From IMG/VR virus record IMGVR_UViG_3300036760_001531, positions 1-62,490 of that record: a stretch of DNA of 62,490 nucleotides; one strand, written 5' to 3'. This DNA comes from a virus. The first letter of the stretch is position 1. The number at the start of each line of letters is the position of its first letter. The translations under genes were made by a program, and so were the position numbers. Below, piece by piece: positions 2,438-61,442 of the stretch. Below the pieces are notes generated by a model. That model saw only the letters and a program-made list of their open reading frames with translations. It was not told where the DNA came from and ran no database searches.

Positions 2438-2792
2438 CCCGCCCCTTCAAGTAAACCACCGCGGTCACGGTGTAGCCGCTCACCCCCGGGTCGCCGGAGA
2501 TGGTGCATTTCAGGGTGTTTCTGCCGCTCAGGATGCGGCGGATGGTGACCCCGAACTCAAAGTCATAGTTAGCGTTATGGGCTTTGGCCGTGCCGTCAAA
2601 CATCTGGAAGCCGTCTTCGTCCTCCAGGGTGAGTTGCGCCGTTCTGGAATTGGTGTTGGAACTATTGCGCTGGTGAATCCACAGCAGTTCTCCCTCCAGG
2701 GCCAGGACCAAACTCTGAATCAAACCGGCCCCGGTCGCGCCGTTGGCGAACGTGAAGATAACCTTTTTCCTAAGATAGCGTTCTGGTTTCAT
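2430..2792 (-). CDS. Hypothetical small beta-rich virion protein
   Basis: 120 residues beginning MKPERYLRKK, rich in predicted beta strands, with no signal peptide, membrane span or catalytic motif seen. It overlaps the end of the giant gene by 4 nt (ATGA) and so is probably co-translated with it. By size and position it could be a small virion or adhesin-related protein, but I do not recognise it. Confidence 0.7.
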   Translation of the reverse strand: MKPERYLRKKVIFTFANGATGAGLIQSLVLALEGELLWIHQRNSSNTNSRTAQLTLEDEDGFQMFDGTAKAHNANYDFEFGVTIRRILSGRNTLKCTISGDPGVSGYTVTAVVYLKGRDG

Positions 2793-8700: not shown

Positions 8701-11700
8701 GGTTATACTCGCCAATCTGCTTCAGGTGCTCCACCAGGTCTTCATACTTGGCGTCGATGGCTGCCCACACTTCTTCCTGCACCGAGACCGGCTGCAAGGA
8801 GGTCCAGCCGGTGACCCGCTTGGTGAGCTTGCCGGTCTCCGCATATTGGGTAAGGATTTGGTGAATGCGGCCGTCTTTGTCGGCCTTGATAAAGTCATCA
8901 TCAATGACGTTATCCAGCACCCCACTTAAACGGTCATTCAGGCTGGGATCGTCGGCGAACATCTCGGCGATCACCTGGTCGCCGTATTGATTGATGATGT
9001 CATTCACATCCAAAGAGTAGGCGGACTCCCCCTTGGCGGAGACGTTGGCGAACAAAGAGGCCAATTTCTTTTGGAGGATGGCCAGGGGGCGCTTCTCCCC
9101 CGGGAGGGAGCTAATTTTGATCATGTAGCTGGGTAGGTTGACCTGTCCGGTGCGGTGAATACGCCCCAGGAGCTGCACCGCCTCGTTGATCTCGTTGCTC
9201 ATCTGGGTCAGAATCATATGCCGGGGGCGCTGGTCCTGGAATTTCTCGCCGGCATGAAGGGAGATCCCGGTGCTCCCGGAACTGTTGATGATGAGGGCGT
9301 CATACTCCCCAGAATTGAATTTGTTGACCGGGGTATTCTTGTCAGATTTCTCCTTGGTGCCACGCTTCCTGAGAATGTTACCTTCCTGCTCCCAATCCAG
9401 AACATGCTCACGGCCGGTAATCTCACCCACCTTGAACCCTTCCTTAATGAGGGCCTTGGCGATGTAGTCGATGGGCATGGCTGGCACGTCCGTCGTGGTG
9501 CCTTCAAGGAGATTTGTCAGGTTGCGCCACATGGTTTGGAGGTGGGGGGGCATATCTTCAGGTCTTACGATCACCTTCTCCGGCGGAGCCCCCCGGCCAT
9601 GGTCGATTCTATAAACCAAGACGCTATCCGCCGCCTTCCGTATCACCTGGGCGAAATTCATATTAAGCTCATCGCCCACCTTAATGGTGCCCGCCTCCAG
9701 CATATCCTTCACGAAGGCTTCCATGGTGTTGTAGCAGCCGATGGTCACCTTCTTGCCCTGCTTGAGGGCTGCCAAGGCCTCCTTGATGGTAGCATCCGTC
9801 CGCAGGCAGAAGAGAAGCTGGGAAATCTTGTTGTGCATCACCGAGGCAAAATTGGTGTTCGAGATCCCACCCCGAAAACCCGGCTCCACTTGCTCGCCTT
9901 CCTCTTGGAAATTATCGTTTAGGTCCGCTACCCATTCGCTAAAGGCTTTGGAAAACCGAAGAATTTCCCGCAACCCTTGGGTCAGATCATCCGACCGTTG
10001 CCGGTCCCGGGTAATATTCTCCGTGTCCACCTCCACCGGGATGTCGATGCCGGAGAAGGAAAGCTCGTTGCGGATCATCTGGCCGCTTTGGGCCCATTGG
10101 TGGGCGATCCATTCTTGGAGGGGGACCCCGCCCATCACCAAGTTAGCAATGACGGTGTCGATGTCCACGTTGAGGTTGCCCAACTCGGTGCGATGGTACA
10201 GGGCCATGGTGTCGGGCCGTTTGGCGTAGGTGGCCGAAGAATAGATCACCCCCCGCGCTTGGTCCGTCATGTGGGCCCGGAGAAAAGCCCCGGTCTGGCT
10301 TTTGTCTCCGGCCCCCTTGTGGGACTCGTCCAGGATCAAGATGGACTGAGGCGCCAAAGCCCTTAACAGTTCCATCTTGCCGGTCATGGTCCGGCTATTC
10401 ATCTGATAATAGGTGGTAAAAACGGCATCATGGCCAGCCGGCAAACGGCGATTCCTAACCGCCTCTCTGATGGCGTTAAGGTCCAGATTCCGGAGCACAT
10501 TACCGGAATTGTCCACGATGCGGGCCCGATCCGGGTTGCTGGCCACGATGAGAGGATTGAGGTCTGCCTTAATGTCCTTCATATCCCGGTACATGGCCGA
10601 AAACAGGCCGTCGTTTTCCGTCAAGAAGATAGGGGTCAAGCCCTGGTTCTTGGCGTAACGCATGATGGCCGCTACCATGCGGCCCTTGCCCACGCCCGTC
10701 TGATGGCCGATCACGAAGCCGCCGGTGCCCCGTTCGATGGCGTCGATAGCCAAAGCCACGCCCTCGACCTGTTCGGCCCCCAAGACCCCGAACATTTCGC
10801 CCTTGGTTTTGTAACCCAGGCGGCTCCGCACAAACTCGTCCAGGTCGCCAACCTCTTCCTGTAATTTTTCCAGGTAATTGCCGACGGCTTCGGCCATGTA
10901 CCGGGGGGCCACGGTGTTCATGGCCTGTCCCTTGGAAGTGGGCTTGTAAGGCACCTGGAGGCTGGTTTCTTCGGCTAGTTTGGATTCAGGGATCGGGGCC
11001 TTTTCTTCTTTGGCCGCAGGCGGTCCTTCCAGGATGTTTTTCACGTCCGCGGGGTTGACGGTGATCGCCCCTTCTGACCACTGGACGGTGAGCACCATCT
11101 TGTCGCCCCAACCGCGCACCTTGGTGATCTGGCCGGTGGCGCCGTCGTTGGTTTCAACCCATTGGTTCTTCTGGAAAACCTTGAGGCCCTGGCGGTCCTC
11201 ATCGGAGAGCTTGACTTCTTTACCGCTCTCGTCAACGACGCCCTGGATTTGGGAGATGGGGATTCGGCGCACGTTGCCGTCGGCATCCACAACTTCGACG
11301 GTCTGTTCGCCGTAGGGGGCTTGTCCTTGTTTGTAGGGGGCCTGCTCTTCCTTGATAGTGACGGTGGTCCCGTCAGGAAGAGTGATCTGAGTGCCGGAAC
11401 CTATAGACTTAGGAGGAACTCGTCCAGATTGAGGTCTTTCTGTTCCTCCTGTAGCTCTTGTTGCGGGCTGAGATGATCTTCCCCCGGGTTCTGGGGATAG
11501 TGGTTTAACAGGTCCAGCTTGTTCTCCGGGCTCGGGTTGCGGAGATACTCCAGGATGTGCTCCAGCGACACCTCCGGCGCCTGCCTGATCATGTCTATCA
11601 ACTCGTCCTGGTTCTCGTCCCCCGGGAGATACTGGTCCGCAACGTGGGGCCCCAGGCTGTCCAAGGCCCGGCACACTTCCTCGTCCCCCTCCCGGTTCGC

Positions 11701-14700
11701 CACCTTCTTCACCAGGTCTCGGACCTTCTCCTTCCAGACCTCCAGGTACTCCCACGCCTCCGGCCCCCTCTTCGCCACCTGGGGCAGGAGAAACACCCCC
11801 AGGCCGACCCGGGCCGGCCGGCTGTCCTTGAGAAAGTCCGGGAGCCACAATACCTTCTGCGCGGGCATCTATGTCTCCTTTTAATAACTTATAAACATCC
11901 TCAAAAGTTTTGGCAACCTCTATCTGGTCGATTTTGTAGGGTGCCGCCGCCTTGTCGGGCTGAACCTTGCGGCCTTCGATGGTGATAAGGCGAATGGGGA
12001 ACTTGGTGCCCATGCGCTCGTACACCTTGCCGTCGATGTTGATATGGTGAGTGACGTTGTAGTGGGAGTAGAGGTAGTTGAAGAAAACCCGGTCAGCGTT
12101 GGTGAGCTTACCCATGATGCCGCCCAGAGGATTTGCGAAAGAATGGCCGCCGACAATGAAGGCGGCCCGCCCGTCGTCGTCCATGGCCTTGAGAGCATCC
12201 AGGGTGATCAGATGTTCCAGCTTGGAAACCTTGTAACCGTCAAAATCTACCGGGGTATCCAGGCTGCCGAAAGGCGGATTGGCGATCACTACGTCCACCG
12301 AGTTTTCTTGCGGACCGCCCTTCTTACCTACCAAGCTCTGAGCGTCTTGGGAAACCACGTCGAACCCCTGAGACCGCAGATGGTCAGCCCGAAGTGGGTC
12401 GATCTCATTCGCCAAGGTCTGTTTCGGGTTGGCGCCGATCAGGAGCATGCCGTTGCCGGCGGTGGGCTCGTAAACCCAAGAATCCTTGGTGATCCCTGTA
12501 ACCTTATCCATCAGGTAGGCCAGGGGCGCCGGGGTGGAATAAGCCTGGTTCCTGATGGTGGTGGAGGTCCGGGAGGTGAGGGCCGGCTGCCGGTTATAGA
12601 GGTCGATCAGCTTGCGAAGGGTTCCGGCCACGTCTCCTTGGGTATCCCCGGCCACGGTGCTCCGGTTGGCATAGACCAAGGCCAGTTCTAGAGCTTCCTC
12701 GATCTGCTTGCGGTAAGATGGCATTTGAAGCCACTCAGGAGGAATGTTGTGGCGTTTCTGAACCTGCTCCATCAAGTTACCGAGGCTGATGTTGCCGCGC
12801 AGGTCGGAAGTGTAGAACATCTTGGCCAGTTCCACCGTGTCGATCTTGGCGGGCCTGGGCGCAATTCCCGGAGGCAGGTTGGAAGGGGGCTTGGGTTTGG
12901 GCACCGGCACCGGCACCGGCTCCTGGTCGAACAGGTCCCCGGGCATCCCTCCCAGCCCCGGCAGGGTTCCCTGCTGCCCCTGGACCGCGGCCTTCTCCAA
13001 AAGCTGGCGCTGTTCCTCGGCGGACAGGTTCCCCCTGGCCACCTGGTCAAACATCTCCTGGTCGGCGCTCATGGCCGCAATCTGGAAATTTTCAGCCTTG
13101 GGGAAAGCCCGGAGAACGGTAGCAGCCCGTTCCCGGTCGATGTCGGGGTATTCGTCTTGGAGTTCGTTAAGGCGAGCTTCGAGGGTGGAGGCCCTGGGCT
13201 GGCCGCCGGTGAGGTCGAAGTCGGGGGTTACTTCTTCGGTGCCGGGACCGCCTTCGGTTTGAGTTGGTGCGGGCCCTTGGGCCGGAGGTGCGGGTTCTCC
13301 TCCGCGAACTTGTCCTCCAACGCCTGCGCCAGGTCCAAAGGTACTTTCCCGATCTTTTTTGAGGGCTTCGGGGAGATTCTCATAAAATGCCTTCCTGATT
13401 TCCGATTTTACTGAAACATCACGCAGTTGTCCAGCATATTCCCGCAAGAGGGTATTGGTGGCCGATCCGCTTAACTTTGCAGCCTTATCGAAAAAGGCCA
13501 GGTTGGCCGCCGCCTGCTGGCTGATCATCTCGTTGGTGTCGAGGTCCAGGATGTTGCCGGCCTCGGTCAGGGTCCCAGCCTCCTTGCTAACCAGGCCGAA
13601 AAGCCGCTTATCCTTGCGCAGCTTGTCCTTGGTATAAGCCTTCAGGTCGGCGGTCTCTTCCAGGAGATTCCTTTGCAGCTCTTCCTCGCCGAAGAGGGTA
13701 ATCTGCTTAGTGGGGATAGTCTCAGAGGCCACCGCCTCCCGCACCATCTCCAGAAGTTTTGCTTCAGAGATGGGCCTGGATTCTTCCCGGGCTTTCGCCA
13801 TGCGGTACACCGCTTCCTGGACCGGATGGTCTTTCGGGTCGGGCAATTCACGCCCGATAACCGCCGCCTTCTTCGCCGGGAACTGCCCCATTGCTACCGC
13901 GGTGAAGATAGGATCACTCAGGGCTGCCAGTTCCACCGCCTGCCGGGAGTGGCCCGGGGTCATGGACACCCCACGCTCACGCAGTTCCTCCGGGGTCAAC
14001 CCCAAGTTCCGAATAGCCTTGGCCGAATCAACCGTGGTCCCGGTGCCCGCCCGGATATTGGCCAGAGCCGCCTCCACTTGGGCCTGGGGGATGGAGTAGT
14101 AGTCAGAGTCGAAAACCTGGACCTTGTGTAGTTCCAACCCCACCCGGTCCCCGGCTTCCAGACGCTGGTGGCCGTCAATGAGTTCGACCCGCCCGTCCGG
14201 GTAGCGGTACAAGGAGATGTCCCCGGCGCTGGCCGCTGACCATTGCCCTCTCTTGGTGATGTCTGTCAGGGCCAGCCCACCACCAGTTTTTTTCTTCGCC
14301 CCGAACTTGTGCTGCCAGAGCTCCGGGTTCAGATTGATAAGCTCCCGGGGAAAGTTGGGATGATGCGACAAGCCCGGCTGATTAACCGAAGCTGTTTCGC
14401 CCTTAACAAACCGCTCCGGCTGCGGGGCCCAGGCCTCGCCCTGAGGGGTAGGTCTGGGGGCAATCCCCGGAGGCAATTTGGTAGGCTTCGGGGCGGAAAC
14501 GGTCGGTGGAGCCGCAGGTTTCGGTCGGAGGGTTTCTGGTAGTTGAGCCTCCTGGCCGCCCTCGTCGAGGTAACCCCGGACCCGAGAAATGTCGATGCGG
14601 TGCACGTTGCCATCAGCGTCCACCACCTCAAAAGCCTGGCCGCCATAAGGAGCTTGTTCCTCTTTGACGGTAACAACGGACCCGTCCGCGAGGGTGACTT

Positions 14701-16951
14701 TGGTGCCTGAGCCTATGACCGTGGGGCCCTTGGGCGGGGGAGCCGAAGGGGGGCCGCCCGGGGGAGGTTTCGGCCCCGATATGGTAACGATGGTTCCGTC
14801 ATCGAGAACCAGCTTGCCCCCAGGCCGAAAGATCGTGTCCGCGGTGGTCGGTCCCGAAGCGGCGGCAGAGGTCTCCGGCGAAGGGGGAACACCAGGAGGT
14901 GGGACTGCCGTCGCTTCCGGGGCCGGTGTAGGTTTCTTGGTAGCCGCCTCTGCCACTTCCGCCCAGGTGATTCCCATGGGGGCCTGGGGTAATCCGCTTC
15001 TCCCGGCAATCTCCCGGCGGGTAACTCCGCTCAAGACTTCCCGGTTGGCGGCCAGGAGACCGTGCAAGTCCCGGGCGGCTTGGGAGTCGCCGGTTTCCTC
15101 TACCTGGCGGATAAGAGTTTCAAGCCGCTTGGCAATGGGTTCCAGGCCGGGAATCTCTCTCTCCGGCACCCGGAAGAGGTCCCCAATACCCTTTTGGTTG
15201 GCGATGAGAAGCTGGTTCAATTCTTGGGCGGCGTTCGGATCCCCTGTCTCTTCCACTGCGGTAACCAACTGGCTGACCCGCTCACCCAGACTGGGGACAC
15301 TCGGTTTCGGCCTGCCCGCCTCCATTACCTCAGCGCCGGCGACCCCCATAGGCGTAGTCGGTCTGGGACCACCAAATGCGGGCGGGACTATCAGCCTTTT
15401 GGGGGCAGGGGGTTCCTCAGCGCCGGCGATGGTTTCTCCCAGGGCCTCAAGGTCTTTCTGGTGGCGGTCAGCCCAGAGCTTTTCGTCGGCGGTGCGTTCC
15501 CAGGCAGGCTTCGCCAATATCTCACGAAGCCTTACGTCTTCCTCTGTAGGCCGGACCGGACGCCCCATTTCATCCACCAGAGGTGTCTCACCCGGGGGGA
15601 TTTCTTCAACCCGCGGCTGGCCTCGCAAGTCTCTGGTGGTGTAGGGCGAAGGCACCTCCACCTCTTCAGGTGGCCGCATCTGTCGGACAACTGCACCCCG
15701 GGCTGCCCCTTCTTCGGCTGCCTGCATGGTGCCCTGGTATTCCTCTTCCGCCAGCCGCTTCGCCTCCTGAACTCGGACGGCCACTTCCTTTACGGCCTTG
15801 TGGCGCACGTTGAGGCCGGCGAAGGTTCCACCAATGCCCCCCAGGGCGGCGCCGATGAGGACGCTTTCCACAATCCCTTCGGTGAGTTTCTGGTCCGGGT
15901 CAAACCCTAACCGGGCTGCGGCATTCTCTACGAGCGACTGCGCCCCTTCCGTCACTCCCTCCGTGGCTACGCTGTCGATGATCTTGCGGACGATCAAGCC
16001 GCCCTCTTTCCCGGCGAAGACCTGCTTGACCATCTCCGGGAGACTTATTTCACCCCCATATTTCCCCATGAACACCCGGCCAAAAGACATGGCCTCCAAG
16101 CCACCGGCCACTACGCCGGTCCCCAGGATGGAGAGCACCCGGTTAGCCCAGGGGATAGGTTTATCCGGGTTCTTGTTTTCGTACTCCCGAACCTTTTCTT
16201 CCGCCTGGCTCGCCTCCATCGCCATAGACATGCCGTACATGCCGATGGTGCTCAGGCGGTTAAGTTTCTTCCCAATCTCAGCGATCTTGGCGGTATCACC
16301 TGCGACCTTGGCCGCTTCTAAGGCCGTGCCCAATTTCCCGGCGTAAGCCACCGCCCGGGGTGCCCAGGCGCCCACGATGGTCGGGATCATGGATATGGCC
16401 CCTTCCGGCAACTGCGCCGCCCAGAATCGGGGGTTAGTGGCCTGAGAGGTGATCTGGCCGATAACCTCCCCGGGGTTGGAAATGATCCGGTCCAGGTCGA
16501 TGGGTTTGCCGCCGGCCGCCTTGGAGGGTTTCCACTCCGGGGACTCAGCCGTTTCTTCCAGGCTCTCAATGATAGGCACCGTGGCCCGCTTCACCGTCTC
16601 ACTCCCCAGCACGTCGGAGCCGACGATCTTGGCCACCTGCACCGGCAGCTTGGCGAGCCCTATGGCCCCCCGGACCACGGAAGCCCCGATCTCCCCGGGC
16701 AGGCTGCGCTCCACCTCCACCGCCTCGGCTTCCTTCTTCCGTGCCAGGTGTTCCGCCCGCCCCGCCGCATAGTCAAAATCGCTTTCCGACATGAATTTGG
16801 AGCGGTCAGATTCGGCAGACGCGGGTTCGGCAGGGGTATCCCACCAGCCGGGAGGCAGTTTAGCGGCCTCTACCGGCGGGGTAGCCGCTGACGGAGTAGC
16901 CGATCTTAGACTCGTTAAACCCTGCTCTTTTTCTTCATCCAGGAAAGGCAT
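2789..16951 (-). CDS. Giant polyvalent ejected virion protein (ParB-like, DarB-like methyltransferase and helicase, RadC-like, metallopeptidase-like)
   Basis: 4,720 residues. Order seen: hydrophobic N-terminal region; repeats with ETGD-AA; a ParB-like motif (DGHQRLEAGDR, about 925); an adenine methyltransferase core (EPTAGNG about 1,495, NPPFG about 1,557); a Gly/Pro/Glu-rich linker (about 1,695-1,850); a Strawberry-notch/SNF2-type helicase (GHQTGVGKGR about 2,085, LDESHKGAG about 2,210, LGRIHRTGQ about 2,600); a RadC/JAB-like HNHPSGNPDMS (about 3,290); an HEVGH zinc-peptidase-like motif (about 3,927); and a C-terminal region like PLxRFG/LPD-type giant proteins. Related proteins, such as P1 DarB and the Bcep22 giant protein, are thought to be carried in the virion and enter with the DNA, modifying or protecting it. 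Position after the internal proteins fits. A separate gene is nested inside it at 11401-11868. Confidence 0.9.
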   Translation of the reverse strand: MPFLDEEKEQGLTSLRSATPSAATPPVEAAKLPPGWWDTPAEPASAESDRSKFMSESDFDYAAGRAEHLARKKEAEAVEVERSLPGEIGASVVRGAIGLAKLPVQVAKIVGSDVLGSETVKRATVPIIESLEETAESPEWKPSKAAGGKPIDLDRIISNPGEVIGQITSQATNPRFWAAQLPEGAISMIPTIVGAWAPRAVAYAGKLGTALEAAKVAGDTAKIAEIGKKLNRLSTIGMYGMSMAMEASQAEEKVREYENKNPDKPIPWANRVLSILGTGVVAGGLEAMSFGRVFMGKYGGEISLPEMVKQVFAGKEGGLIVRKIIDSVATEGVTEGAQSLVENAAARLGFDPDQKLTEGIVESVLIGAALGGIGGTFAGLNVRHKAVKEVAVRVQEAKRLAEEEYQGTMQAAEEGAARGAVVRQMRPPEEVEVPSPYTTRDLRGQPRVEEIPPGETPLVDEMGRPVRPTEEDVRLREILAKPAWERTADEKLWADRHQKDLEALGETIAGAEEPPAPKRLIVPPAFGGPRPTTPMGVAGAEVMEAGRPKPSVPSLGERVSQLVTAVEETGDPNAAQELNQLLIANQKGIGDLFRVPEREIPGLEPIAKRLETLIRQVEETGDSQAARDLHGLLAANREVLSGVTRREIAGRSGLPQAPMGITWAEVAEAATKKPTPAPEATAVPPPGVPPSPETSAAASGPTTADTIFRPGGKLVLDDGTIVTISGPKPPPGGPPSAPPPKGPTVIGSGTKVTLADGSVVTVKEEQAPYGGQAFEVVDADGNVHRIDISRVRGYLDEGGQEAQLPETLRPKPAAPPTVSAPKPTKLPPGIAPRPTPQGEAWAPQPERFVKGETASVNQPGLSHHPNFPRELINLNPELWQHKFGAKKKTGGGLALTDITKRGQWSAASAGDISLYRYPDGRVELIDGHQRLEAGDRVGLELHKVQVFDSDYYSIPQAQVEAALANIRAGTGTTVDSAKAIRNLGLTPEELRERGVSMTPGHSRQAVELAALSDPIFTAVAMGQFPAKKAAVIGRELPDPKDHPVQEAVYRMAKAREESRPISEAKLLEMVREAVASETIPTKQITLFGEEELQRNLLEETADLKAYTKDKLRKDKRLFGLVSKEAGTLTEAGNILDLDTNEMISQQAAANLAFFDKAAKLSGSATNTLLREYAGQLRDVSVKSEIRKAFYENLPEALKKDRESTFGPGAGVGGQVRGGEPAPPAQGPAPTQTEGGPGTEEVTPDFDLTGGQPRASTLEARLNELQDEYPDIDRERAATVLRAFPKAENFQIAAMSADQEMFDQVARGNLSAEEQRQLLEKAAVQGQQGTLPGLGGMPGDLFDQEPVPVPVPKPKPPSNLPPGIAPRPAKIDTVELAKMFYTSDLRGNISLGNLMEQVQKRHNIPPEWLQMPSYRKQIEEALELALVYANRSTVAGDTQGDVAGTLRKLIDLYNRQPALTSRTSTTIRNQAYSTPAPLAYLMDKVTGITKDSWVYEPTAGNGMLLIGANPKQTLANEIDPLRADHLRSQGFDVVSQDAQSLVGKKGGPQENSVDVVIANPPFGSLDTPVDFDGYKVSKLEHLITLDALKAMDDDGRAAFIVGGHSFANPLGGIMGKLTNADRVFFNYLYSHYNVTHHINIDGKVYERMGTKFPIRLITIEGRKVQPDKAAAPYKIDQIEVAKTFEDVYKLLKGDIDARAEGIVAPGLSQGQPAGPGRPGGVSPAPGGEEGAGGVGVPGGLEGEGPRPGEEGGEPGGGRGSVPGLGQPGAPRCGPVSPGGREPGRVDRHDQAGAGGVAGAHPGVSPQPEPGEQAGPVKPLSPEPGGRSSQPATRATGGTERPQSGRVPPKSIGSGTQITLPDGTTVTIKEEQAPYKQGQAPYGEQTVEVVDADGNVRRIPISQIQGVVDESGKEVKLSDEDRQGLKVFQKNQWVETNDGATGQITKVRGWGDKMVLTVQWSEGAITVNPADVKNILEGPPAAKEEKAPIPESKLAEETSLQVPYKPTSKGQAMNTVAPRYMAEAVGNYLEKLQEEVGDLDEFVRSRLGYKTKGEMFGVLGAEQVEGVALAIDAIERGTGGFVIGHQTGVGKGRMVAAIMRYAKNQGLTPIFLTENDGLFSAMYRDMKDIKADLNPLIVASNPDRARIVDNSGNVLRNLDLNAIREAVRNRRLPAGHDAVFTTYYQMNSRTMTGKMELLRALAPQSILILDESHKGAGDKSQTGAFLRAHMTDQARGVIYSSATYAKRPDTMALYHRTELGNLNVDIDTVIANLVMGGVPLQEWIAHQWAQSGQMIRNELSFSGIDIPVEVDTENITRDRQRSDDLTQGLREILRFSKAFSEWVADLNDNFQEEGEQVEPGFRGGISNTNFASVMHNKISQLLFCLRTDATIKEALAALKQGKKVTIGCYNTMEAFVKDMLEAGTIKVGDELNMNFAQVIRKAADSVLVYRIDHGRGAPPEKVIVRPEDMPPHLQTMWRNLTNLLEGTTTDVPAMPIDYIAKALIKEGFKVGEITGREHVLDWEQEGNILRKRGTKEKSDKNTPVNKFNSGEYDALIINSSGSTGISLHAGEKFQDQRPRHMILTQMSNEINEAVQLLGRIHRTGQVNLPSYMIKISSLPGEKRPLAILQKKLASLFANVSAKGESAYSLDVNDIINQYGDQVIAEMFADDPSLNDRLSGVLDNVIDDDFIKADKDGRIHQILTQYAETGKLTKRVTGWTSLQPVSVQEEVWAAIDAKYEDLVEHLKQIGEYNLESEHLDLQTKTLSKSVLVAGSTQGKSELSSPTYFETVEAKVQKKPMTMAEIEKRMHANLKGRQPQDLADEIKTKIQQDFEPWLTEKIALMRGAGTSQDTINRFEQGARGALSYTLRHLDEYQIGTAIKYELQAMVGVIYDLKYKPITGSNPATPGNIKISMAVDSTMRIFKTSMAGISTGTTRYKMSALDGWGEGSPQSPSWDEKLPDQTYETRYLVTGNLLGNPIDAGQMTFFTRDDGKLATGFLMPLNFDLSKHPELQRVMLSQSQAETLLKREGWMSDSSYEVIMRKMGLGYSLEVPTSKAKGGKYFLNKELLALVRNGEFYRSRGRMVGDIQSREDALAAVGLLYKLGVVFSTDRATADNIFGSSLGGAPGVAEKTVPYTQLTAEHHAEEVKLAYGSEKAANQVVQETARQIEKVHRNLQGIPSPGVPGVLARYRSRIAQEYSKQGWIDLSGRQLESGREAQQIAELFQVFRNPKMEILHAIYTKNGEIVAHNAITSGQINSVRPKNIAQHLFRLQETAKRLGADKVHILHNHPSGNPDMSLADRSMARVLRDGFTSLNEAQGETTGVVGKTGEGQEIEGLGNLMGEFIVIDHGKFSYLYEYPGQGRHINYGNYKVSPELRQAHAKGMIIKNASDLAAFISTIKYDPNKVVLIHLTSANEVNGWSVHNKTILDKPVKQVKQSLKQEMKAFNANRTVIVTEDMAVVNKMLSQEIETGAQDNINLTSMVLDVINARGENLRGSAEFLWQLSGRQAGKEARAMWEPQASYSPAEAENVLTDYDRKMLAPEGKRTIWEKIKAVKTGEGTKGFLEKFYTEVVDRYAPMERAEEKLKKAGIIVGPGQSVTNALSYMRGQEGRVRQALSGDHVYQNVMEPDENGRMVFTGEIEDVGASLDKRLEPIKKLAAKRGEEVPKVMHDLFNRLMVAQRDLELAGETGSRAPGEIKGTRPEDSRAALDALKSIYGDDFKTLEDAARSVREWGDQTILQPLLQVGFIDQARYDEIKAKNEFYIPFKRLMEDIDDYINANAAALGVKGRVIQKIKGSERAILDPLQMWIELAYKANYAFARNYVVQNIAVLGEYGDPDIKEVPAKYLPVDFAQKQEIDAVLRPQLVKLAKALGIDVKVMGTMRSRRLGQFKKWLSQEVQSGGITSEVAKEIQVRFATFEATLAHEVGHGIDDAYGLVKLLIEQGTPEMKRELRRIADQRADNPSSSYKRYIRKKEEQVAEFVSRYIIDKRSVERLAPNALAKFEGYLRQNDKLRPLLTFKLSHQAGMLEAMNRVWARSPLPPEPGTIPYYRDGKQLWLKVPPDIFQATQSMMPSEIGILLKVAKAPADLLRAGAIMTPEFALARNPARDIIQAYLFSRFGFNPLKWFRDAYGLVAKDEDTLRYRREWEAGGGPLATLAQSMVDPEQITSETIMGKKKGMVYHAHPLAALRHASAYLENMTRFSIYKQAREKGLSHAEAIHEARRTTLDFARHGGHPVIRYLNMIIPFWNASIQGADKLITELSGPNKWAVMRRMSLLTTASILLWTLAHQDDRYKELEDWEKNYFWHIPLGGKNSPMVRLPKPFEAGILFGSIPERMLDWAVDKNINGVKAALGAAWQTLTPEFIPAIVRPIVEGGANYNWFTGRPIEDASLQNLPAELRAKPWTSELAKAISRHTPAMMELSPVKVEHFVRSMTGGLGANYFFPGIDVLLRKTGALEDIPQPTKDTIEYFWGVRAFFTKPPTGYRAKTVNDFFEAYQKSIQADQGWKLLWNSGSMDKLDEFLADNPEAMFARVARKQVDEMGKIKKERNSIYLSKTLTSEQKRGKLDVLDEKIVQLAKVGQALMDPEVAQALKMPSRFKTEAGTRKSLDLDGYYKFVTESVGDACDSIQKDLPRLLRMDEAQRQRYLIKAIRQAREDYQPILKKPEDVMKPYRFSNLVDKPTRAERAAWQQVMGFRKSNPGLMTGYRLKPEEERREVGP
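11401..11868 (-). CDS. Overprinted gene nested in the giant gene (155 residues, unknown)
   Basis: Complete ORF in a +1 frame relative to the giant gene. It has its own strong ribosome site: AAAAGGAGA ends 6 nt before the ATG. The product starts MPAQKVLWLPDFLKDSRPAR, is acidic and looks globular and helical, with balanced composition. By hand count about 132 of 155 nested third positions are G or C (about 85%), while the giant frame has G or C in only about 46 of 155 third positions here (about 30%) and encodes a low-complexity Gly/Pro/Glu linker. This suggests the nested frame is the one under protein-level selection. It sits between the methyltransferase and helicase parts of the giant protein. 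No family recognised; whether it is expressed is not shown. Confidence 0.7.
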   Translation of the reverse strand: MPAQKVLWLPDFLKDSRPARVGLGVFLLPQVAKRGPEAWEYLEVWKEKVRDLVKKVANREGDEEVCRALDSLGPHVADQYLPGDENQDELIDMIRQAPEVSLEHILEYLRNPSPENKLDLLNHYPQNPGEDHLSPQQELQEEQKDLNLDEFLLSL

Positions 16952-21883: not shown

Positions 21884-22139
21884 TCATCTCTCCCGAGCCG
21901 GCCAATATTGACCGCCGCACCGCCGGGGTCATGTTGGCAAACTCCGGCGGATATTTAACCCGCAAGGCCGGAGCCCGGCGGGGTGCTGGTTTTATCGTTA
22001 GCGCCGCCGGGCATTCATGGCAAGGAAACCCGGGGAGGCAATAATCGCTTAACTGGTTCTCCAGACAGTGCCAGAGCTTCATTTCCGTCTGATAACCATC
22101 GCAAAAGAACCAATCCTCACAGCCTTCATGCTTTTTCAT
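21876..22139 (-). CDS. Cys-rich small protein
   Basis: 87 residues with six Cys (CEDWFFC, HCLENQLSDYC, FPCHEC) in the first half, suggesting a metal-binding or disulfide-linked fold, then a Pro/Arg-rich tail. ATGA-type overlaps at both ends tie it to the fibre gene upstream and coiled-coil protein B downstream. Function unknown. Confidence 0.65.
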   Translation of the reverse strand: MKKHEGCEDWFFCDGYQTEMKLWHCLENQLSDYCLPGFPCHECPAALTIKPAPRRAPALRVKYPPEFANMTPAVRRSILAGSGEMNG

Positions 22140-24358
22140 CGCTTCACCCTGACCACCGGGATGATCTCAAAATGGCTTAGACGCTCAAAGTCCGAAATTT
22201 CTATGGTCATCAGCCGGTCCTGGAGGTCGGTGCTCACGCTGAAACGGTCCCTCTGGAGCTTAAAATAGCCCTCCCGGCCCTTGGTCTCCGCCACCACATG
22301 GGCTTCCGGGACCCCGGCGTCGCCCGGGTAGATAGCCCGTATCCCCTTGAGGTTGTCCACCCCGAAATTAGCCGGGCCCAGGCGCAGGCCGGAATGGACC
22401 GGCCGCCCATCGTCGTCGCCCCCCTCCAGGACGTAGATACCGTCGTCTTTGGCGGCCAGGACTTCGCCGTTGCGGGTGGCATAGGAATTAAAATTGAACC
22501 CGCTATACATGGAGGGCGAAAAGCTGAAGCCGGTGAGGACCCAGGTCTCATAAAGTTCTGCATCCTCAACGGTGGTGCCTTCCACCAGGACGCCGCCCAT
22601 GATGTCGAACTCGGTAATCGGCGGCAACCAGAAGCCGAAGGTGCAGGCCCCGCCAACCTTGACCCCACCCCGGCGCACCGTCCACTCATAGGCCCCAGGC
22701 TCCGGAATGTCGAACTCCAGGGCCCCGGAAACATAGACGCTGCCGCCGGTGGTGAACTCGTAATAGACTTCATCCGCGTCGGGGGTGATGATCTCAATGG
22801 GCGGGTAACGCCGTTCCCCCACCACCACGCCGCCGGACAGGGAGATCGTGGTGATGAGGTCTGCTGGTTCCACGAAGGAGAAATCCAGGGCCCCGCCGAT
22901 GGCCACGCCTTTACTGGTGGTAAACTCGGTAATAAGGGTCGTGGTGGGGTCGTAAACCGTGATGGCCAGCTTGCCACCGATGGCAACCCCGCCTTTCACG
23001 TCAACGACGATAAGCCAGGGTTCGGGGGTCTCGATGTCGAGTTTGCCGCCGATGGCCACGCCGCCCGCGGTAGTGAAAACGAAAATGCCGGGGTCAACGA
23101 TTTCAAACTCGAAGGCCCCTTCGACGGCCACGCCGCCTTCGGTCTCCATCGCATATTCGGCGTAAAGGTCAAACTTGGCCGCCGTGTTGTCGAAGGCGAG
23201 GGTGAGGCCATCGGTATCAATACACCAGAACGGCGGCGGGTCCCCCAGGTCGGTAAAATCAACGCACCCGTAGCCGCTTACGTAATCCCAACCCGGGACC
23301 GGGACCTTATAAATGGCTTCCGGCAGGACCGTTACGGGGATATTGCCGACGTATTGGCGCACCGGACAAGAGTACCCTTCGGCGGTCGGGTCAACCACGA
23401 CTGTCAAATAGCCCACATAATGCCGGACATTAAAGGTCGTGGAAGAAGGGATTACGGCAACCGGGATATTCCCCACATAGATGAAATCGCCGGGCGGCTG
23501 ATAATAATAGCCTTCCGCCGTGGGGTCCACGGTGACGGTAACATCGCCCACCTTGGCGTAAATCGGGTCATAGCCCGCCGCCGTGGGGTCAACCGTAACG
23601 GTGATGTCACCCGCATATACAAATTGTCCTGGCGGGGTGGCCTCATATTCTACCTGGACGATGTTTTGGCTGACTTTGAGTTTGGGGGCGGTATCGTATT
23701 CTACTTGAGCAATATTTTGGAAGACCTTTAGCCGGTCCTCGAAATCCAGAGTTTGGCTAAATTCGACCCAGGGGTTGTAATCACTAGTGGAGGTCTCATC
23801 CTCTGGCAAGTCAGAGGCGGCAGCATCTCCGAAACGGAAGTAGGCATTATAGGCCGAAGTTATCGTGTTGAATGAACGGACCCCGATTTCAATGACGATG
23901 CGGTCTCCGTCCTGGGCGACAACCTCAGAAAGAGACTGAGAATTGGGGAAAAAGCGGTTGGTGAGGGAAGTGGCGAACTCCGACTCCAGGGACGAAGGGA
24001 AATGCGAGAGCAAGGTGCCCCGTAACGTAAGACCATCATTGGAAACCACTTTAATGATGATGCCCCGGCAGTATTCAGCGAGAGCGTTAATTTCATAGAC
24101 CCTGATTTGCCCCTTGACCGTGCCCGAACCCGAAATCGTTTGGGCCACAAGCGGGTCGCTGACATACTGGCGCACCAGAAAATCGTAGGGCTGAGAGGAA
24201 GAAATCTCAGTATGACCGGGGGTGGTGGTGAGGGCGGTATTCTGCTTTACCGGCCCCATCCAATGCCGCAGGGCACCAGTAGTTCTCTCCCAATCAGCCG
24301 CAAAAGCAGGACTGTTAGGAGCATCAATGGCTTCTGGTAAATAAAACCGGGTCGGCAC
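22136..24358 (-). CDS. Beta-repeat tail fibre or spike-like protein
   Basis: 740 residues, GTG start preceded by GGGGGCGG. The N-terminal 220 residues are mixed alpha/beta. Residues about 245-350 contain repeated VGDVTVTVDPTAEGY-like units (five or so), and residues about 410-620 contain a second family around GGVAIGGKLDIE (about eight). The C-terminus (VLEGGDDDGRPVHSG) is different again. Such beta repeats are typical of extended fibres or baseplate structures. The gene lies in the tail block upstream of internal proteins. Receptor binding is inference. Confidence 0.7.
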   Translation of the reverse strand: MPTRFYLPEAIDAPNSPAFAADWERTTGALRHWMGPVKQNTALTTTPGHTEISSSQPYDFLVRQYVSDPLVAQTISGSGTVKGQIRVYEINALAEYCRGIIIKVVSNDGLTLRGTLLSHFPSSLESEFATSLTNRFFPNSQSLSEVVAQDGDRIVIEIGVRSFNTITSAYNAYFRFGDAAASDLPEDETSTSDYNPWVEFSQTLDFEDRLKVFQNIAQVEYDTAPKLKVSQNIVQVEYEATPPGQFVYAGDITVTVDPTAAGYDPIYAKVGDVTVTVDPTAEGYYYQPPGDFIYVGNIPVAVIPSSTTFNVRHYVGYLTVVVDPTAEGYSCPVRQYVGNIPVTVLPEAIYKVPVPGWDYVSGYGCVDFTDLGDPPPFWCIDTDGLTLAFDNTAAKFDLYAEYAMETEGGVAVEGAFEFEIVDPGIFVFTTAGGVAIGGKLDIETPEPWLIVVDVKGGVAIGGKLAITVYDPTTTLITEFTTSKGVAIGGALDFSFVEPADLITTISLSGGVVVGERRYPPIEIITPDADEVYYEFTTGGSVYVSGALEFDIPEPGAYEWTVRRGGVKVGGACTFGFWLPPITEFDIMGGVLVEGTTVEDAELYETWVLTGFSFSPSMYSGFNFNSYATRNGEVLAAKDDGIYVLEGGDDDGRPVHSGLRLGPANFGVDNLKGIRAIYPGDAGVPEAHVVAETKGREGYFKLQRDRFSVSTDLQDRLMTIEISDFERLSHFEIIPVVRVKR

Positions 24359-49473: not shown

Positions 49474-49667
49474 AGGGAATCATTGCGAACTTGAAAGAGG
49501 CCCGGATTGATATTTTATCATCCAGGAATAGCCTGAATAGGGCCGGGGGGCGGGAAATATCGGTGTTCGAGCTTGACCAGGCCGATGACTACCTTGTACG
49601 GGTATTAAATCGGCTGGAAAATCTTGAACCTGATCCCCCGGCCCGGGTCACGGCGGGAGGCAACTAA
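49470..49667 (+). CDS. Hypothetical small protein
   Basis: 65 residues from ATG at 49470 (MKGIIANLKEARIDIL). Helical. Coupled on both sides by ATGA/TAATG overlaps, the second with the integrase. Unknown function. Confidence 0.6.
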   Translation: MKGIIANLKEARIDILSSRNSLNRAGGREISVFELDQADDYLVRVLNRLENLEPDPPARVTAGGN

Positions 49668-50311
49668 TGGCCAGACGCAAAATTCCTGACGTTCTTTTGA
49701 AGGGGGAGCAGAAGCTACTCTTGAACCAGCTTCTTGCTCTCCCGCCAGGGGAGATCGCCGACGAGGGGGACGGCCTCCGTCCCCGTGGCCGGCCCCTTAA
49801 TTCACTCACCCGGCTCCGCAACCTCTGCCTGGTGCGCCTTATGCTTAACTCGGGGCTCAGGTGCAGCGAAGCCTTACACCTGCGGCGCCGGGACCTGGAG
49901 CCCACCACCGGCAAGCTCAAGGTGTATGGGAAGGGCGGCAAGGAGCGAATTCTTTGGCTCTGCGAGGCCGATGTCAACCTCCTCCTGGGATACCTCAACA
50001 ATCAACCCGGGAAACCCGAGGACTTTATTTTTACTAACCTCAAGGGCGGCCCCTTGAAGTCTCGGTATGTTCGCTGGATGGTGGGCGAGGTGGCCCGGGC
50101 CGCCGGGATCACCTACAAGGAGGTCCACCCCCACACCTTGCGGCACACCTTCGCCACGGACCTGCTGCGGGCTACCAAGAACCTCAGGCTGGTCCAGAAG
50201 GCCCTGGGCCATGAAAGGATCGGGACCACGCAGATTTATCTGCACATCGTTGATGATGAATTGGAAGACGCCATGAAGAACTTCAGGAATGGCTCTTCTG
50301 CAAAACCCTAA
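49667..50311 (+). CDS. Tyrosine recombinase (integrase)
   Basis: 214 residues, mostly a catalytic domain. Active-site residues: Arg65 in SGLRCSEAL, Lys92 in KGGKER, His156/Arg159 in HPHTLRHTFAT, His182 in ALGHERI and nucleophile Tyr191 in QIYLHI. The N-terminal SAM-like arm or core-binding domain is short, resembling stand-alone Xer-like or small phage integrases. It may integrate the phage or resolve multimers. A repeat cluster and inverted repeat follow directly. Confidence 0.85.
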   Translation: MARRKIPDVLLKGEQKLLLNQLLALPPGEIADEGDGLRPRGRPLNSLTRLRNLCLVRLMLNSGLRCSEALHLRRRDLEPTTGKLKVYGKGGKERILWLCEADVNLLLGYLNNQPGKPEDFIFTNLKGGPLKSRYVRWMVGEVARAAGITYKEVHPHTLRHTFATDLLRATKNLRLVQKALGHERIGTTQIYLHIVDDELEDAMKNFRNGSSAKP

Positions 50312-50317
50312 CCGCCT

Positions 50318-50362
50318 GGCGGCTACGGCTTAATGTGGCGCAAATCTTTTGCCGTAGCCGCC
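50318..50362. repeat. 12-bp inverted repeat just after the integrase
   Basis: GGCGGCTACGGC (50318-50329) and GCCGTAGCCGCC (50351-50362), with a 21-nt loop that contains another TGGCGC. Either a terminator-like hairpin or part of a recombinase or origin site. Confidence 0.6.
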
Positions 50363-50371
50363 GGCAGGCCC

Positions 50372-50428
50372 TTACTCCACCGCTTCCTTGAACGACTTCG
50401 CCGGCCTGATCACTTCTGCTTTGGTCAT
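50372..50428 (-). CDS. 18-codon micro-ORF with strong ribosome site
   Basis: AAAAGGAGACCACC before the ATG, then MTKAEVIRPAKSFKEAVE and stop. The ribosome site is better than that of many annotated genes here. The product is basic-helical. It could be a leader peptide, a residue of a larger gene or chance. Confidence 0.3.
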   Translation of the reverse strand: MTKAEVIRPAKSFKEAVE

Positions 50429-50489
50429 GGTGGTCTCCTTTTAGATGGGTCTTACTTTCTTGAGTTTTTTCTGTTCGTTTTTAGAAAAT

Positions 50490-50696
50490 CGGTGGCGCTA
50501 ATTGACGCCGCGGTGGCGCTAAATTAAATCCTATGCGCCACCACGTAAGTGAATAATATAATTTATAAAAAAGCCCAAAAGTGGCGCGTGGCGCTAAATT
50601 ACCAAGTTTTCACTATGTGAAAAGTTTTCAATTTAGCGCCTTTAGCGCCACTACGTGTCAACCACGGGGTTTTTTTAGCGCCACCCCTATGCGCCA
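50490..50696. repeat. Iteron-like TGGCGC cluster (candidate origin or recombinase site)
   Basis: Exact TGGCGC on plus at 50493, 50514, 50582 and 50589; the reverse GCGCCA at 50535, 50645, 50678 and 50691; plus a near-match at 50636. Several extend to TGGCGCTAAATT or its reverse. Forward copies are mostly on the left, reverse copies on the right, around a 7-bp-arm palindrome TTTTCAC-TAT-GTGAAAA at 50607-50623, with an AT-rich stretch between. The layout is typical of an iteron origin, next to the Prim-Pol gene, or of arm-type sites, next to the integrase. Confidence 0.7.
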
Positions 50697-50771
50697 CCTT
50701 ACCGTTTTTACCGCCTTTACCGCCACCGGCGTCTTGTAAAGAATTTTGCATCTTACGGAAGTCCAAATTTG

Positions 50772-52313
50772 CTATTTTGCATCTTCCTTCTCCCTGCCAT
50801 CAAGAGCTTTCCGGAATATCATTTCTTTTATCTCTTGCGACATACCATCCAGGTTCATGCACCAGGCGCGGACGTTTTGCCGGTTCCATTTAAACTTTTC
50901 TCGCTCATGGCCCAGGCTGGGGAAAAGAACCGTCATTTTCCTGAGGGCCTTAAATCCGAGCGACAACCTGGCTTCCATAAAAAGTGCCGAGCCCCTGGCA
51001 TATAATTTCGGCTTCTCGTCTTTGCGTTGTACGATAAAAAAGGCGACGTGATGAGGGATGGACTGATTTGACGAGAAATACATCAAACCCCGGTAGCTTT
51101 CCACATAGGTGTTCAGAAATTCCCGCAGTTCCCCGAGTTGGGTTGATTCCTGCCCCACGTCCTGCTGGATGGACAGCCGGAACATTTGCCTGACGACTTC
51201 ATGCCAAGCGCCGCCCCCCTTTGGTTCAGCGATTTTTTTGGGCACCAGGAGGCCGGCCTGGGCGAATCTTTTTATGAAGAGACGTTGTTCGATGAGATCC
51301 GCCGCCGTGATCATCACGCTGTCGTCTTCGCCCAGGGCAAATTCCAGGACGGAGTCATCGCTCTTGGTGACCCGGATGTCGGTGATGGGCAGGCCCAGAC
51401 GTTCACCTAAGCCCTGTAGGGCGGCCTGGCGCTGTTCTTCCCAGGATAGGTTATTGGGTTCGGATGCCGCCTTCCCTTCTTGCGCCCCGGTTTTGATCCG
51501 TTTTCGAGCCTCCATGCGGGCGGCACTGGAAACTACCTTGCAGAGGTCCTTGTCAGGTAAGGCTTCTTCGTTCCGCAGGTTCCAGGAGCGAAGCATTTCC
51601 AGGACCCGGGGCTCTGGTTCACCCCTGCCCAGGTAGTACCCGGCCAGCCTGATGGCCGTGTTATCACGTTCCCCTTTATCGACTCCCCTGAGGGCCTTAG
51701 TCACCCAATCTTCGTCGGGGGGGAGCAGGTCGCCCTCGGTAATTTCAACCTGGGAGATTTCCAGCTCCAGATGTTCCAGCAACCAGGCGGGAAGAGGCTC
51801 AAGATCGCAATCTTTTAAATCTAGCCCGAAGCACCACTCGTATTGTTCACCGTTGGGATGGATAGAGGGCGGGGCCACGACATAGCCCCCATCACCCTTG
51901 ATGTCGGCACCGGGGATCTTTTTGATCATGTTCTTGATCTTGCCGCCCGGGTGCTTGAAGTAATAATGGAATTTTTGGTGGATATTCCCCTGATCGTCTT
52001 TAAAGGTGGAGGTCTTTACTGTAGGAGTGAGCGGCAGTTTATATCCGTGTTCGGCAAGCCAGGCCTGGAAAACCGGCGGGTCGTCCTCATCCAGAACTAT
52101 TATTCCTGAGACTTTGCCGGTAACGATGGCGATATTTTTCTTCCCATTCTTGAACCAGGACTCTACCTCCTGCGGCGTCGGCCGGCGCTGTTGCCAGATA
52201 GTCCAGTCATCTATGGGCTTCTTCTTCTTAGGTTGAAGGGGGAATAAAGATAGCCCCTTGGCTTGATAAAGGGCAACGAGTTTCTGAAGGGAGGAGGATT
52301 CAGTTTCAGCCAT
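50772..52313 (-). CDS. Bifunctional primase/polymerase-type protein (Prim-Pol)
   Basis: 513 residues from ATG at 52313 (MAETESSSLQ). The archaeo-eukaryotic primase core is clear: GLSLFPLQPKKKKPI, VTGKVSGIIVLDEDD with the DxD metal site (about 75-77), HQKFHYYF, and GDGGYVVAPPS (about 141-150). A PriCT-like region follows (VDKGERDNTAIRLAGYY). No helicase domain is present; helicases are encoded separately at 55.9 and 57.3 kb. Directly beside the TGGCGC cluster, so likely the origin-acting primase. Confidence 0.8.
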   Translation of the reverse strand: MAETESSSLQKLVALYQAKGLSLFPLQPKKKKPIDDWTIWQQRRPTPQEVESWFKNGKKNIAIVTGKVSGIIVLDEDDPPVFQAWLAEHGYKLPLTPTVKTSTFKDDQGNIHQKFHYYFKHPGGKIKNMIKKIPGADIKGDGGYVVAPPSIHPNGEQYEWCFGLDLKDCDLEPLPAWLLEHLELEISQVEITEGDLLPPDEDWVTKALRGVDKGERDNTAIRLAGYYLGRGEPEPRVLEMLRSWNLRNEEALPDKDLCKVVSSAARMEARKRIKTGAQEGKAASEPNNLSWEEQRQAALQGLGERLGLPITDIRVTKSDDSVLEFALGEDDSVMITAADLIEQRLFIKRFAQAGLLVPKKIAEPKGGGAWHEVVRQMFRLSIQQDVGQESTQLGELREFLNTYVESYRGLMYFSSNQSIPHHVAFFIVQRKDEKPKLYARGSALFMEARLSLGFKALRKMTVLFPSLGHEREKFKWNRQNVRAWCMNLDGMSQEIKEMIFRKALDGREKEDAK

Positions 52314-52341
52314 TTTTCCCTTTGTGTGACCAAGGATCACG

Positions 52342-53534: not shown

Positions 53535-53848
53535 GTATCCCCCTTCATTGGGCGGTCATCAAACTGCGGTTTTGTGAGACGGAGGTGCAAGATGGCGGCG
53601 GCGTTCCACATGACATGTGCCATGTGGTGCAGCCCACTTTCTGAATCCATATCCTCGCCTGCTGCCCAAGCCCAGGCGTGGCGCTGCAAGGAGGCGAAGA
53701 TTTCCATGAACGGCAACCCCTTTTCCCAATTTCGGTCCGCGTATTTTTTGGCTCCTTCGGTATAGACTGCCGCCAGGGTTTTGATGGCTTCCGGGGAAAC
53801 CAGGTCGTAGCGCAGCTTCCCTTCATTTCGCCGGTCACCCCGCTCCAT
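53531..53848 (-). CDS. dATP/dGTP diphosphohydrolase-like protein (DUF5664)
   Basis: 105 residues matching the pattern NEGKLRYDLVSPEAIKTLA-YTEGAKKYADRNWEKGLPF and SLQRHAWAWAAGEDMDSESGLHHMAHVMWNA. Family members are annotated as dATP/dGTP diphosphohydrolase N-terminal domains, which act on nucleotide pools. The His/Glu/Asp-rich motif HAWAWAAGEDMDSESGLHH is the likely metal site. Not a Z-genome marker by itself; no PurZ is seen. Confidence 0.8.
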   Translation of the reverse strand: MERGDRRNEGKLRYDLVSPEAIKTLAAVYTEGAKKYADRNWEKGLPFMEIFASLQRHAWAWAAGEDMDSESGLHHMAHVMWNAAAILHLRLTKPQFDDRPMKGDT

Positions 53849-59405: not shown

Positions 59406-60161
59406 ATGAAAAGATCGGTAATTTACGAACCCCGGGGCAAGGCTGGAGAGTATGCGCCCCTGGCCCTGAATCTTTACCAGGGGTGCTCACACGGCTGCGT
59501 CTATTGTTTTGCCCCCACATCCACTTTTACGGACCGGGCAATTTTCCATGATTCATCCTATATCAAGCCCCGGCCCGGAATCCTGGAGGACCTGGAGAGG
59601 CAGGCGCGCCTGATGAAAGGCGATGATCGGGAAATCCTTCTGAGCTTTACCAGCGATCCCTACCAACCCCTGGAGAGGGAGGCGTTAATAACACGGCAAG
59701 CCCTGGCGATACTCATGCAGTCCAGGCTGACCGTCACCATTTTAACCAAGGGCGGGAGCTGGGGGTTAAACCGGGACCTGCCCCTGCTAACCATGAACCT
59801 TGGCAACGCTTGGAGCGTCACATTAACCCATGACAATCTGGCTACCAGTCTGGCCTGGGAGCCCGGTGCCGCCCTACCTCAAGACCGGATTGAATCCCTG
59901 CGCCTGGCAAAGAAGGCTGGTCTGAAAACATGGGTGTCCTTCGAGCCTGTTATCGATCCGGAGGCGGTCTATCGGCTTCTGGAAGCGACCTATGAATTTG
60001 TGGACCTCTACAAGGTGGGCAAGCTCAATTATCACCCCTTGGCCAAAGAGATCGCCTGGCGGCGTTTCAAGGGGGAGATCGAGGAACGCTTAACCAAGCT
60101 GGGAAAAACATACTATCTAAAAAAAGATTTACTAGCGGCATCCGACCCGGAGGACATTTAA
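59406..60161 (+). CDS. Radical SAM protein (SplB/Rv2578c-like)
   Basis: 251 residues. Cluster motif CSHGCVYC (Cys27, Cys31, Cys34) binds a 4Fe-4S. A following FTDRAIF and SFTSDPYQPLE, TKGG, and FEPVIDPE agree with the SplB-like group, which includes spore photoproduct lyase relatives and many functionally unknown phage/bacterial enzymes. It lies between a nuclease and an RNA ligase. Product unknown; DNA repair or nucleic-acid modification is possible. Confidence 0.82.
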   Translation: MKRSVIYEPRGKAGEYAPLALNLYQGCSHGCVYCFAPTSTFTDRAIFHDSSYIKPRPGILEDLERQARLMKGDDREILLSFTSDPYQPLEREALITRQALAILMQSRLTVTILTKGGSWGLNRDLPLLTMNLGNAWSVTLTHDNLATSLAWEPGAALPQDRIESLRLAKKAGLKTWVSFEPVIDPEAVYRLLEATYEFVDLYKVGKLNYHPLAKEIAWRRFKGEIEERLTKLGKTYYLKKDLLAASDPEDI

Positions 60162-60340: not shown

Positions 60341-60549
60341 CCTTTAACATGTCAACCATAGAACTTTACGAACCTGTGAAACCTGTGGAGCCGGTGCTCA
60401 CCGACCTCAAGCAACTGCGAATGGATCTGCACTTGGCCCTCTTGAATGCTAACTCGGCCCTGGTCCAGCTTTTTCAGACAATCCCGTTGACCCCGGATGA
60501 AATCATGCTTTTGCACTATATCGAAGAATACCTGGGGGTGGCGAGATGA
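60331..60549 (+). CDS. Hypothetical helical protein
   Basis: 72 residues, AGGAGG before ATG. Helical second half (LRMDLHLALLNANSALVQLFQ). Stop overlaps the RNA ligase start (ATGA). No family recognised. Confidence 0.6.
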   Translation: MAVTFNMSTIELYEPVKPVEPVLTDLKQLRMDLHLALLNANSALVQLFQTIPLTPDEIMLLHYIEEYLGVAR

Positions 60550-61442
60550 GGGCTTTCCCTAAAATCTTTGCCCTTGGGACGGATTATATTCGGGACATCT
60601 TCAGGACTCGGGTGGAGATCACCGAAAAGGTGGACGGTAGTCAGTTCGCATTCGGGGTGTTCGGTGGCGAATTCTTCATGCGAAGCAAGGGGGCGCAGAT
60701 TTTCCCCGAAACCCCGGAGAAGATGTTTTTGGCCGCGGTCAACTATGTGGCCTCCATTCAGCACCGCCTACCTGAAGGCATCCTATTTTACTGTGAATAT
60801 CTCAAAAGCCCCAGCCACAACACCCTGAAATATAATCGCATTCCCCGAAACCATCTCATGCTTTTTGGGGCCATGCTGTACCCGGAGGAACGGTTTGTCT
60901 CGGACTTCGATAGCCTGGTCCATTATGCCGAAGATTTGGGGGTCGAAGTCGTGCCCTTGATCTACTCCGGTGATGTCTCCGGCCCCGAGTTTATCCGGGG
61001 TCTTTTGGAACGCGAAAGTGTCCTGGGCGGGTCCAAAATCGAGGGTGTGGTGGTCAAGAATTACACGGAAAAGTTCCTGCTGGGCGGCCAGCCCATGCCC
61101 CTGATGGCCGGGAAGTACGTCTCCGAGGCCTTCAAAGAGGTACATCAGGGTTGGAACAAGGAGCACACCAGCAAAGGAAAATGGCAGACCTTCGTGGATT
61201 CTTTCCACACGGAAGCACGCTGGGTCAAGGCGGTGCAACACCTGGAAGAACGAGGTGAATTAACCAACGCCCCCCAGGACATCGGCAAACTGATTAAAGA
61301 GGTGGCCATCGACATCGCCGCCGAAGAGATGGAGGCCATTAAAAAGTTTCTCTGGAAGGAGTTCGGCCAGGAGGTTATCCGCGCCGCCACCCGGGGACTG
61401 CCGGAGTGGTACAAACAAAGACTACTGGAGAGGTCAACATGA
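60546..61442 (+). CDS. RNA ligase (Rnl2-like)
   Basis: 298 residues. Nucleotidyltransferase motifs: I, Lys28 in EKVDGSQF; III, FYCEYL (81-86); IV, EGVVVKN (166-172); V, GKYVS (189-193). The Rnl2/kinetoplastid editing ligase pattern fits. In T4-like systems RNA ligases repair tRNAs cut by host anticodon nucleases. Here it is joined to a DHH phosphoesterase by ATGA overlap. Its RNA target is unknown. Confidence 0.82.
   Translation: MRAFPKIFALGTDYIRDIFRTRVEITEKVDGSQFAFGVFGGEFFMRSKGAQIFPETPEKMFLAAVNYVASIQHRLPEGILFYCEYLKSPSHNTLKYNRIPRNHLMLFGAMLYPEERFVSDFDSLVHYAEDLGVEVVPLIYSGDVSGPEFIRGLLERESVLGGSKIEGVVVKNYTEKFLLGGQPMPLMAGKYVSEAFKEVHQGWNKEHTSKGKWQTFVDSFHTEARWVKAVQHLEERGELTNAPQDIGKLIKEVAIDIAAEEMEAIKKFLWKEFGQEVIRAATRGLPEWYKQRLLERST

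Follow-up and report, generated by a model that had tools for sequence, protein, structure and literature searches.

A candidate iteron-type replication origin downstream of a helicase-less Prim-Pol gene in an uncultured phage

In Staphylococcus aureus pathogenicity islands and phage-inducible chromosomal islands (SaPI/PICI), as in pRN1-type replicons, the replication origin lies as a rule 3′ of the replication gene (PMC6092414, PMC7581432, PMC4234260). Replication proteins of the archaeo-eukaryotic primase (AEP) type are found in pRN1 and in phages BIP-1/BPP-1, where a stem-loop origin immediately downstream has been demonstrated or suggested (PMC4234260). In the satellites known as PICI-like elements (PLE), the origin and the DNA-binding domain of its initiator vary together as a single module, perhaps under pressure from a nuclease that cuts the origin (PMC8263062). 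In this study, we relate these arrangements to a cluster of short inverted repeats in IMG/VR virus record IMGVR_UViG_3300036760_001531, analysed over its 62,490 bases (the window). The cluster, at 50491-50698 and beside the gene of a primase-polymerase (Prim-Pol) protein, is very probably the iteron-type replication origin of this phage, a reading drawn from sequence comparison: the repeats cluster beyond chance next to a candidate initiator gene, the array is conserved in relatives, and it holds an AT-rich region.

A preliminary description of this DNA had reported eight exact copies and one near copy of TGGCGC/GCGCCA, mostly forward on the left and reverse on the right of a palindromic centre, with an integrase gene ending at 50311 and a Prim-Pol gene whose stop, at 50772, turns its 3′ end toward the cluster; all of this was confirmed. 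Exact copies lie at 50493, 50514, 50582 and 50589 on the plus strand and at 50535, 50645, 50678 and 50691 on the minus strand, that is, eight within 204 bp, and the densest 210 bp of the real window hold 8, compared with a maximum of 2-4 when the whole window was shuffled 60 times with dinucleotides preserved. The longer word GTGGCGC is likewise present eight times, within 206 bp, and every one of the five copies of the longer word GTGGCGCTAA in the window is inside the cluster. As a unit, the repeat reads GGTGGCGC with TAAATT or ATAGG after it, and the copies are ordered + + - (AT-rich) + + (core) - - -, so that forward copies make up four of the five left of the centre and reverse copies three of the three right of it. 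The full word GGTGGCGC is carried by iterons 1 (50491-50498, followed by TAATT) and 2 (50512-50519, TAAATT) on the plus strand and by iterons 3 (50535-50542, ATAGG), 7 (50678-50685, TAAAAA) and 8 (50691-50698, ATAGG) on the minus strand; the inner iterons 4 (50581-50587, plus), 5 (50588-50594, plus, followed by TAAATT) and 6 (50645-50651, minus, TAAA) read GTGGCGC. The near copy, TTTAGCGCC, lies at 50632-50640 on the minus strand, its near TGGCGC word at 50635-50640, and a degenerate pair, TTTACCGCCTTTACCGCCAC (50707-50726, minus strand), may represent decayed iterons.

AT-rich DNA is found at two places within the array, at 50546-50573, a candidate unwinding element, and in the centre at 50595-50634. 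The inner inverted iterons supply the arms of a central palindrome (50580-50652), which as single-stranded DNA folds at -26.5 kcal/mol, with a z of -7.7 against z values of -2.1 and -4.0 in the relatives. Within it, TTTTCACTATGTGAAAA at 50607-50623 is part of a 24-nt imperfect inverted repeat, and the ATGTGAAAAGTTTT core (50615-50628, plus strand) marks the centre of the inverted array. An Rfam scan returned no RNA family at gathering score.

Three sequences were compared, the window and two IMG/VR contigs, the latter labelled L003 and L004 in some comparisons and L005 and L006 in others. These two retain both the integrase (86 and 82% identity) and Prim-Pol (83 and 79%); scans of viral contigs and genome contigs found no further relatives with the origin module beyond these same two phages, and a further contig, L007, had a 33% integrase match only. 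The preliminary description had taken absence of the cluster from relatives that keep both proteins as grounds against it. The exact word is indeed absent from the clusters of both, but an inverted repeat cluster stands in the same place, written in other words. The central ATGTGAAAAGTTTT is common to the window, L005 and L006, and the candidate unwinding element is near-identical in L005 except at its right edge. The word of L005 is GGTGCCGC, those of L006 are GGTACCGC and GGTCCCGCATC (the second elsewhere written GGTCCCGC), and all words of the three phages fit GGTNNCGC. With iterons paired by hand from the window-L005 pairwise alignment, in which the right half is less surely aligned than the left, the change at iteron position 5 (GGTG[G>C]CGC) is found in 8 of 8 aligned copies and in both orientations (seven G>C, one G>T); the remaining 56 iteron positions together show about 3 changes (Fisher, 3.7e-8). 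Such a change of the same base in every copy, whichever way it faces, is difficult to account for unless some protein reads the word. The central core was considered as the signature of a wider family and rejected, as AACATGTGAAAAGTTTT matches in eight other viral contigs that have neither Prim-Pol nor a comparable array.

The candidate initiator is the Prim-Pol protein itself (50772-52340, minus strand; 522 aa), which consists of an AEP domain (PF09250, 109 bits), PriCT_1 (PF08708, 44.3 bits), both above gathering cut-offs, and, at the C-terminus, a domain of about 230 residues for which no match was found in Pfam, PDB sequences, phages or plasmids. Neither a P-loop pattern nor a helicase family was found in the protein. 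If the cluster is an origin, the C-terminus of Prim-Pol is probably the part that reads the iterons. A search of this part for a winged helix gave no family or PDB sequence match, and two AlphaFold models of mean pLDDT 46 and 62 disagree with each other and are too poor for fold identification; ferredoxin-like Foldseek matches were set aside because of the quality of these models. The gene is a single open reading frame in the window and two overlapping ones in each relative (L003 1542-3054; L004 6004-7507), where a 151-aa AEP part and a 354-aa part with PriCT_1 and the C-terminus overlap by 8 nt. The AEP/PriCT_1 half in the window belongs to a different lineage, with about 50-85% DNA identity per 60-nt block, and is joined to a nearly identical C-terminal core.

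Comparison of the two relatives with each other suggests that these phages exchange the origin together with part of the protein presumed to recognise it, as a single unit. L003 and L004 mostly share 95-100% DNA identity over the stretch that begins at the DUF7307 gene and takes in most of Prim-Pol; this falls to 66-86% at Prim-Pol codons about 446-484 and to about 35% in the origin, and stands at about 83-97% in the hu gene, so that strong divergence is confined to a single block running from about codon 446 to the stop and on through the origin. Residues about 446-484 (50889-51005 in the window, minus strand) are accordingly the candidate iteron-reading segment. Within PriCT_1 and the C-terminal part, 14 of the 25 amino-acid differences between L003 and L004 fall in residues 448-483, a concentration reached in 0 of 20,000 permutations with a window width of 36 residues that was our own choice, and residues 450, 465, 480 and 482 differ among all three phages. 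The divergent block also has a higher synonymous divergence (about 0.5 compared with 0.1), for which reason positive selection on the tail was dropped as an explanation, and the most parsimonious history is that tail and origin were exchanged as a block, rather than rapid selected substitution. A sharp mosaic boundary was also seen at window positions 53544-53848; over these roughly 300 bp, which lie upstream of the DUF7307 gene, the window and L003 share about 100% DNA identity and L004 is unrelated.

Taken together, the locus is likely best explained as an iteron origin served by its own Prim-Pol as initiator, with protein tail and origin forming a cassette. The C-terminal domain, probably through residues about 446-484, would bind the GGTNNCGC repeats; assembly on both arms would help to strain, melt or extrude the AT-rich palindromic centre, where the AEP domain would then prime. 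Because Prim-Pol has no P-loop, unwinding would fall to a separate helicase, either from another phage gene, UvrD-like and SNF2-like proteins being encoded, or from the host. The C-terminal tail and the origin would act as one specificity cassette, inherited or exchanged jointly.

Several observations weigh against this explanation. Only three sequences were compared; GC skew has no clear switch at the cluster; and amino-acid differences between the window and L003 show no peak in the tail. Given the raised synonymous divergence, linkage alone within a recombined block could account for the association of tail and origin, which leaves the concerted window-L005 change as the independent evidence for recognition. 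Furthermore, the Prim-Pol phages CRP-810 and C7 have no clear array downstream of the gene. The distant Streptococcus phage SMP (EF116926.2) does: its Prim-Pol and PriCT_1 protein (28.7% identity) is followed by a VapE-like helicase gene, and in the gap after both genes nine 10-bp TGATGTAACC-type repeats in both orientations span 377 bp (L024 5186-5562, about 22064-22440 of EF116926.2), the 6.8-kb locus containing no further copy even when 1 mismatch is allowed. This cluster is unannotated and a probable origin. A downstream array is therefore not universal among Prim-Pol phages. Lastly, the Prim-Pol C-terminal domain has no recognised DNA-binding fold, which leaves room for an iteron origin read by another phage protein or a host factor, with Prim-Pol acting in priming only. 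Such a division of labour has precedent in the RSF1010-like three-protein systems, which separate iteron binding from priming (PMC4234260). Against it, the divergent block unites the Prim-Pol tail with the origin while DUF7307 and a 236-aa protein upstream remain 92-100% identical, and SaPI Rep, Cch2, P4 alpha and ORF904 as a rule have their origin-binding domains at the C-terminus. We regard this variant as rather unlikely, though more probable than an integration site or an operator or partition array.

The preliminary description had allowed for an integration site as well, with the repeats as recombinase arm sites. Attachment sites usually lie near int, and the integrase gene (49667-50311, plus strand) ends 180 bp from the array, so that the repeats could be arm-type sites of an attP region for this tyrosine recombinase or an accessory factor, with a nearby hairpin as core. 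This hairpin (50318-50362) has 12-nt perfect arms, lies downstream of hu and int, and holds in its loop a TGGCGC at 50336 that had been counted as a ninth exact copy; the copy is present, but its word is unchanged in all three phages while the array words differ, and it is thus coincidental and stands outside the array. In L006, about 200 bp of extra sequence separate integrase and hairpin. We also rejected the hairpin as a mobile or widespread repeat, its 27-bp core occurring among viral contigs only in the same two relatives (genomes were not searched). The integrase has 214 aa and matches only the catalytic domain of XerC/D-type enzymes (residues 47-201 to XerD 128-286); the roughly 47 residues left over give no room for the N-terminal arm-binding domain of a lambda-type attP system, and the enzyme is not thought to use the array. 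It is also 82-86% conserved although the repeat words change, whereas the repeats diverge jointly with the Prim-Pol tail, and eight repeats in 200 bp around a conserved AT-rich core are a better fit to an origin. GTDB genome contigs yielded no integrated copy in which att junctions might be read. We discarded an integration site on integrase size and the behaviour of the hairpin copy, and consider it highly improbable, while the iteron-type origin is well supported by the retained layout, the concerted words and the SMP array.

Nearly as improbable is that the repeats form an operator or partition array, bound by a repressor of hu or neighbouring genes or by a partition protein. The array does sit upstream of hu in the relatives, and operators can combine inverted repeats with a palindrome. 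In the window, however, hu is reduced by an in-frame 216-bp deletion, whether true or an assembly artefact, to a remnant of 18 codons (50372-50428, minus strand; MTKAEVIRPAKSFKEAVE), compared with the full 90 aa in both relatives, and yet the array is intact. Nor does the region contain a sigma-70-type promoter, no copy of the palindrome with fewer than 3 mismatches occurs elsewhere in the window, the vicinity of the S24 repressor included, and none of the scanned proteins beside the array matched a partition family.

If the iteron origin with Prim-Pol as its reader is right, the cluster gives this uncultured phage group its origin and a probable initiator. It would also provide a natural test set of three close phages, three iteron words and few candidate residues. 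With their concerted switch and shared cassette, these phages would allow a clean test of how the DNA specificity of an initiator changes along with every copy of its binding site; such co-change has so far been studied in plasmids and in satellites, PLE among them. A further question posed by a helicase-less initiator is which helicase opens the origin. More tentatively, Prim-Pol may represent a helicase-less primase-polymerase initiator with a new type of C-terminal origin-binding domain, whose last ~75 residues would form, together with the origin, a specificity cassette that is swapped between phages nearly identical in other respects. Such swaps may serve to evade interference directed at the origin or incompatibility with relatives infecting the same cell, and single-base switches at the iteron centre would have spread array-wide.

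Elsewhere in the window, a 4720-aa open reading frame (2789-16951, minus strand) takes up about 23% of the record. Genes for a radical SAM protein and an RNA ligase lie near each other on the plus strand (59406-60161 and 60546-61442) and neighbour the UvrD-like and SNF2-like helicase genes and a tRNA-Arg (CCT) gene.

Among described systems, the pri-rep-ori arrangement of SaPI/PICI (PMC6092414, PMC7581432) shares with the window an AEP-type primase, an origin placed immediately 3′ of its replication gene and two iteron sets flanking an AT-rich region. In those elements the initiator recognises the origin through its C-terminal domain, a role that we propose for that of Prim-Pol. The window differs in that the initiator has no helicase fused to it or encoded next to it downstream, its C-terminal domain shows no sequence relationship to theirs, and the element is a phage of over 60 kb and not a satellite; its origin may work by analogy with the SaPI Rep-helicase type but, as the helicase is absent, does not belong to it. 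ORF904 of pRN1 and Bordetella phage BIP-1/BPP-1 likewise combine a Prim-Pol protein with an essential or candidate origin immediately downstream and a palindromic stem-loop (PMC4234260), whereas in the window the stem is made of iterons and a helicase is missing. Phage SMP resembles the window in its Prim-Pol and PriCT_1 homologue and in the inverted and direct repeats of the downstream gap, and departs from it in its repeat word and in the VapE-like helicase gene between primase and array. In P4 alpha, too, the initiator contains a primase, and its C-terminal winged-helix domain binds origin repeats (PMC4234260), although the primase is of the TOPRIM type and a helicase is fused to it. The covariation, and apparent joint exchange, of an initiator DNA-binding region with origin iterons is paralleled by PLE RepA and its ori (PMC8263062), where the initiator is of the RepA_N type, lacks a primase and carries its binding domain at the N-terminus. 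Thus, the kind of origin is already known, and what varies here is an initiator without helicase and with an unrecognised C-terminal domain.
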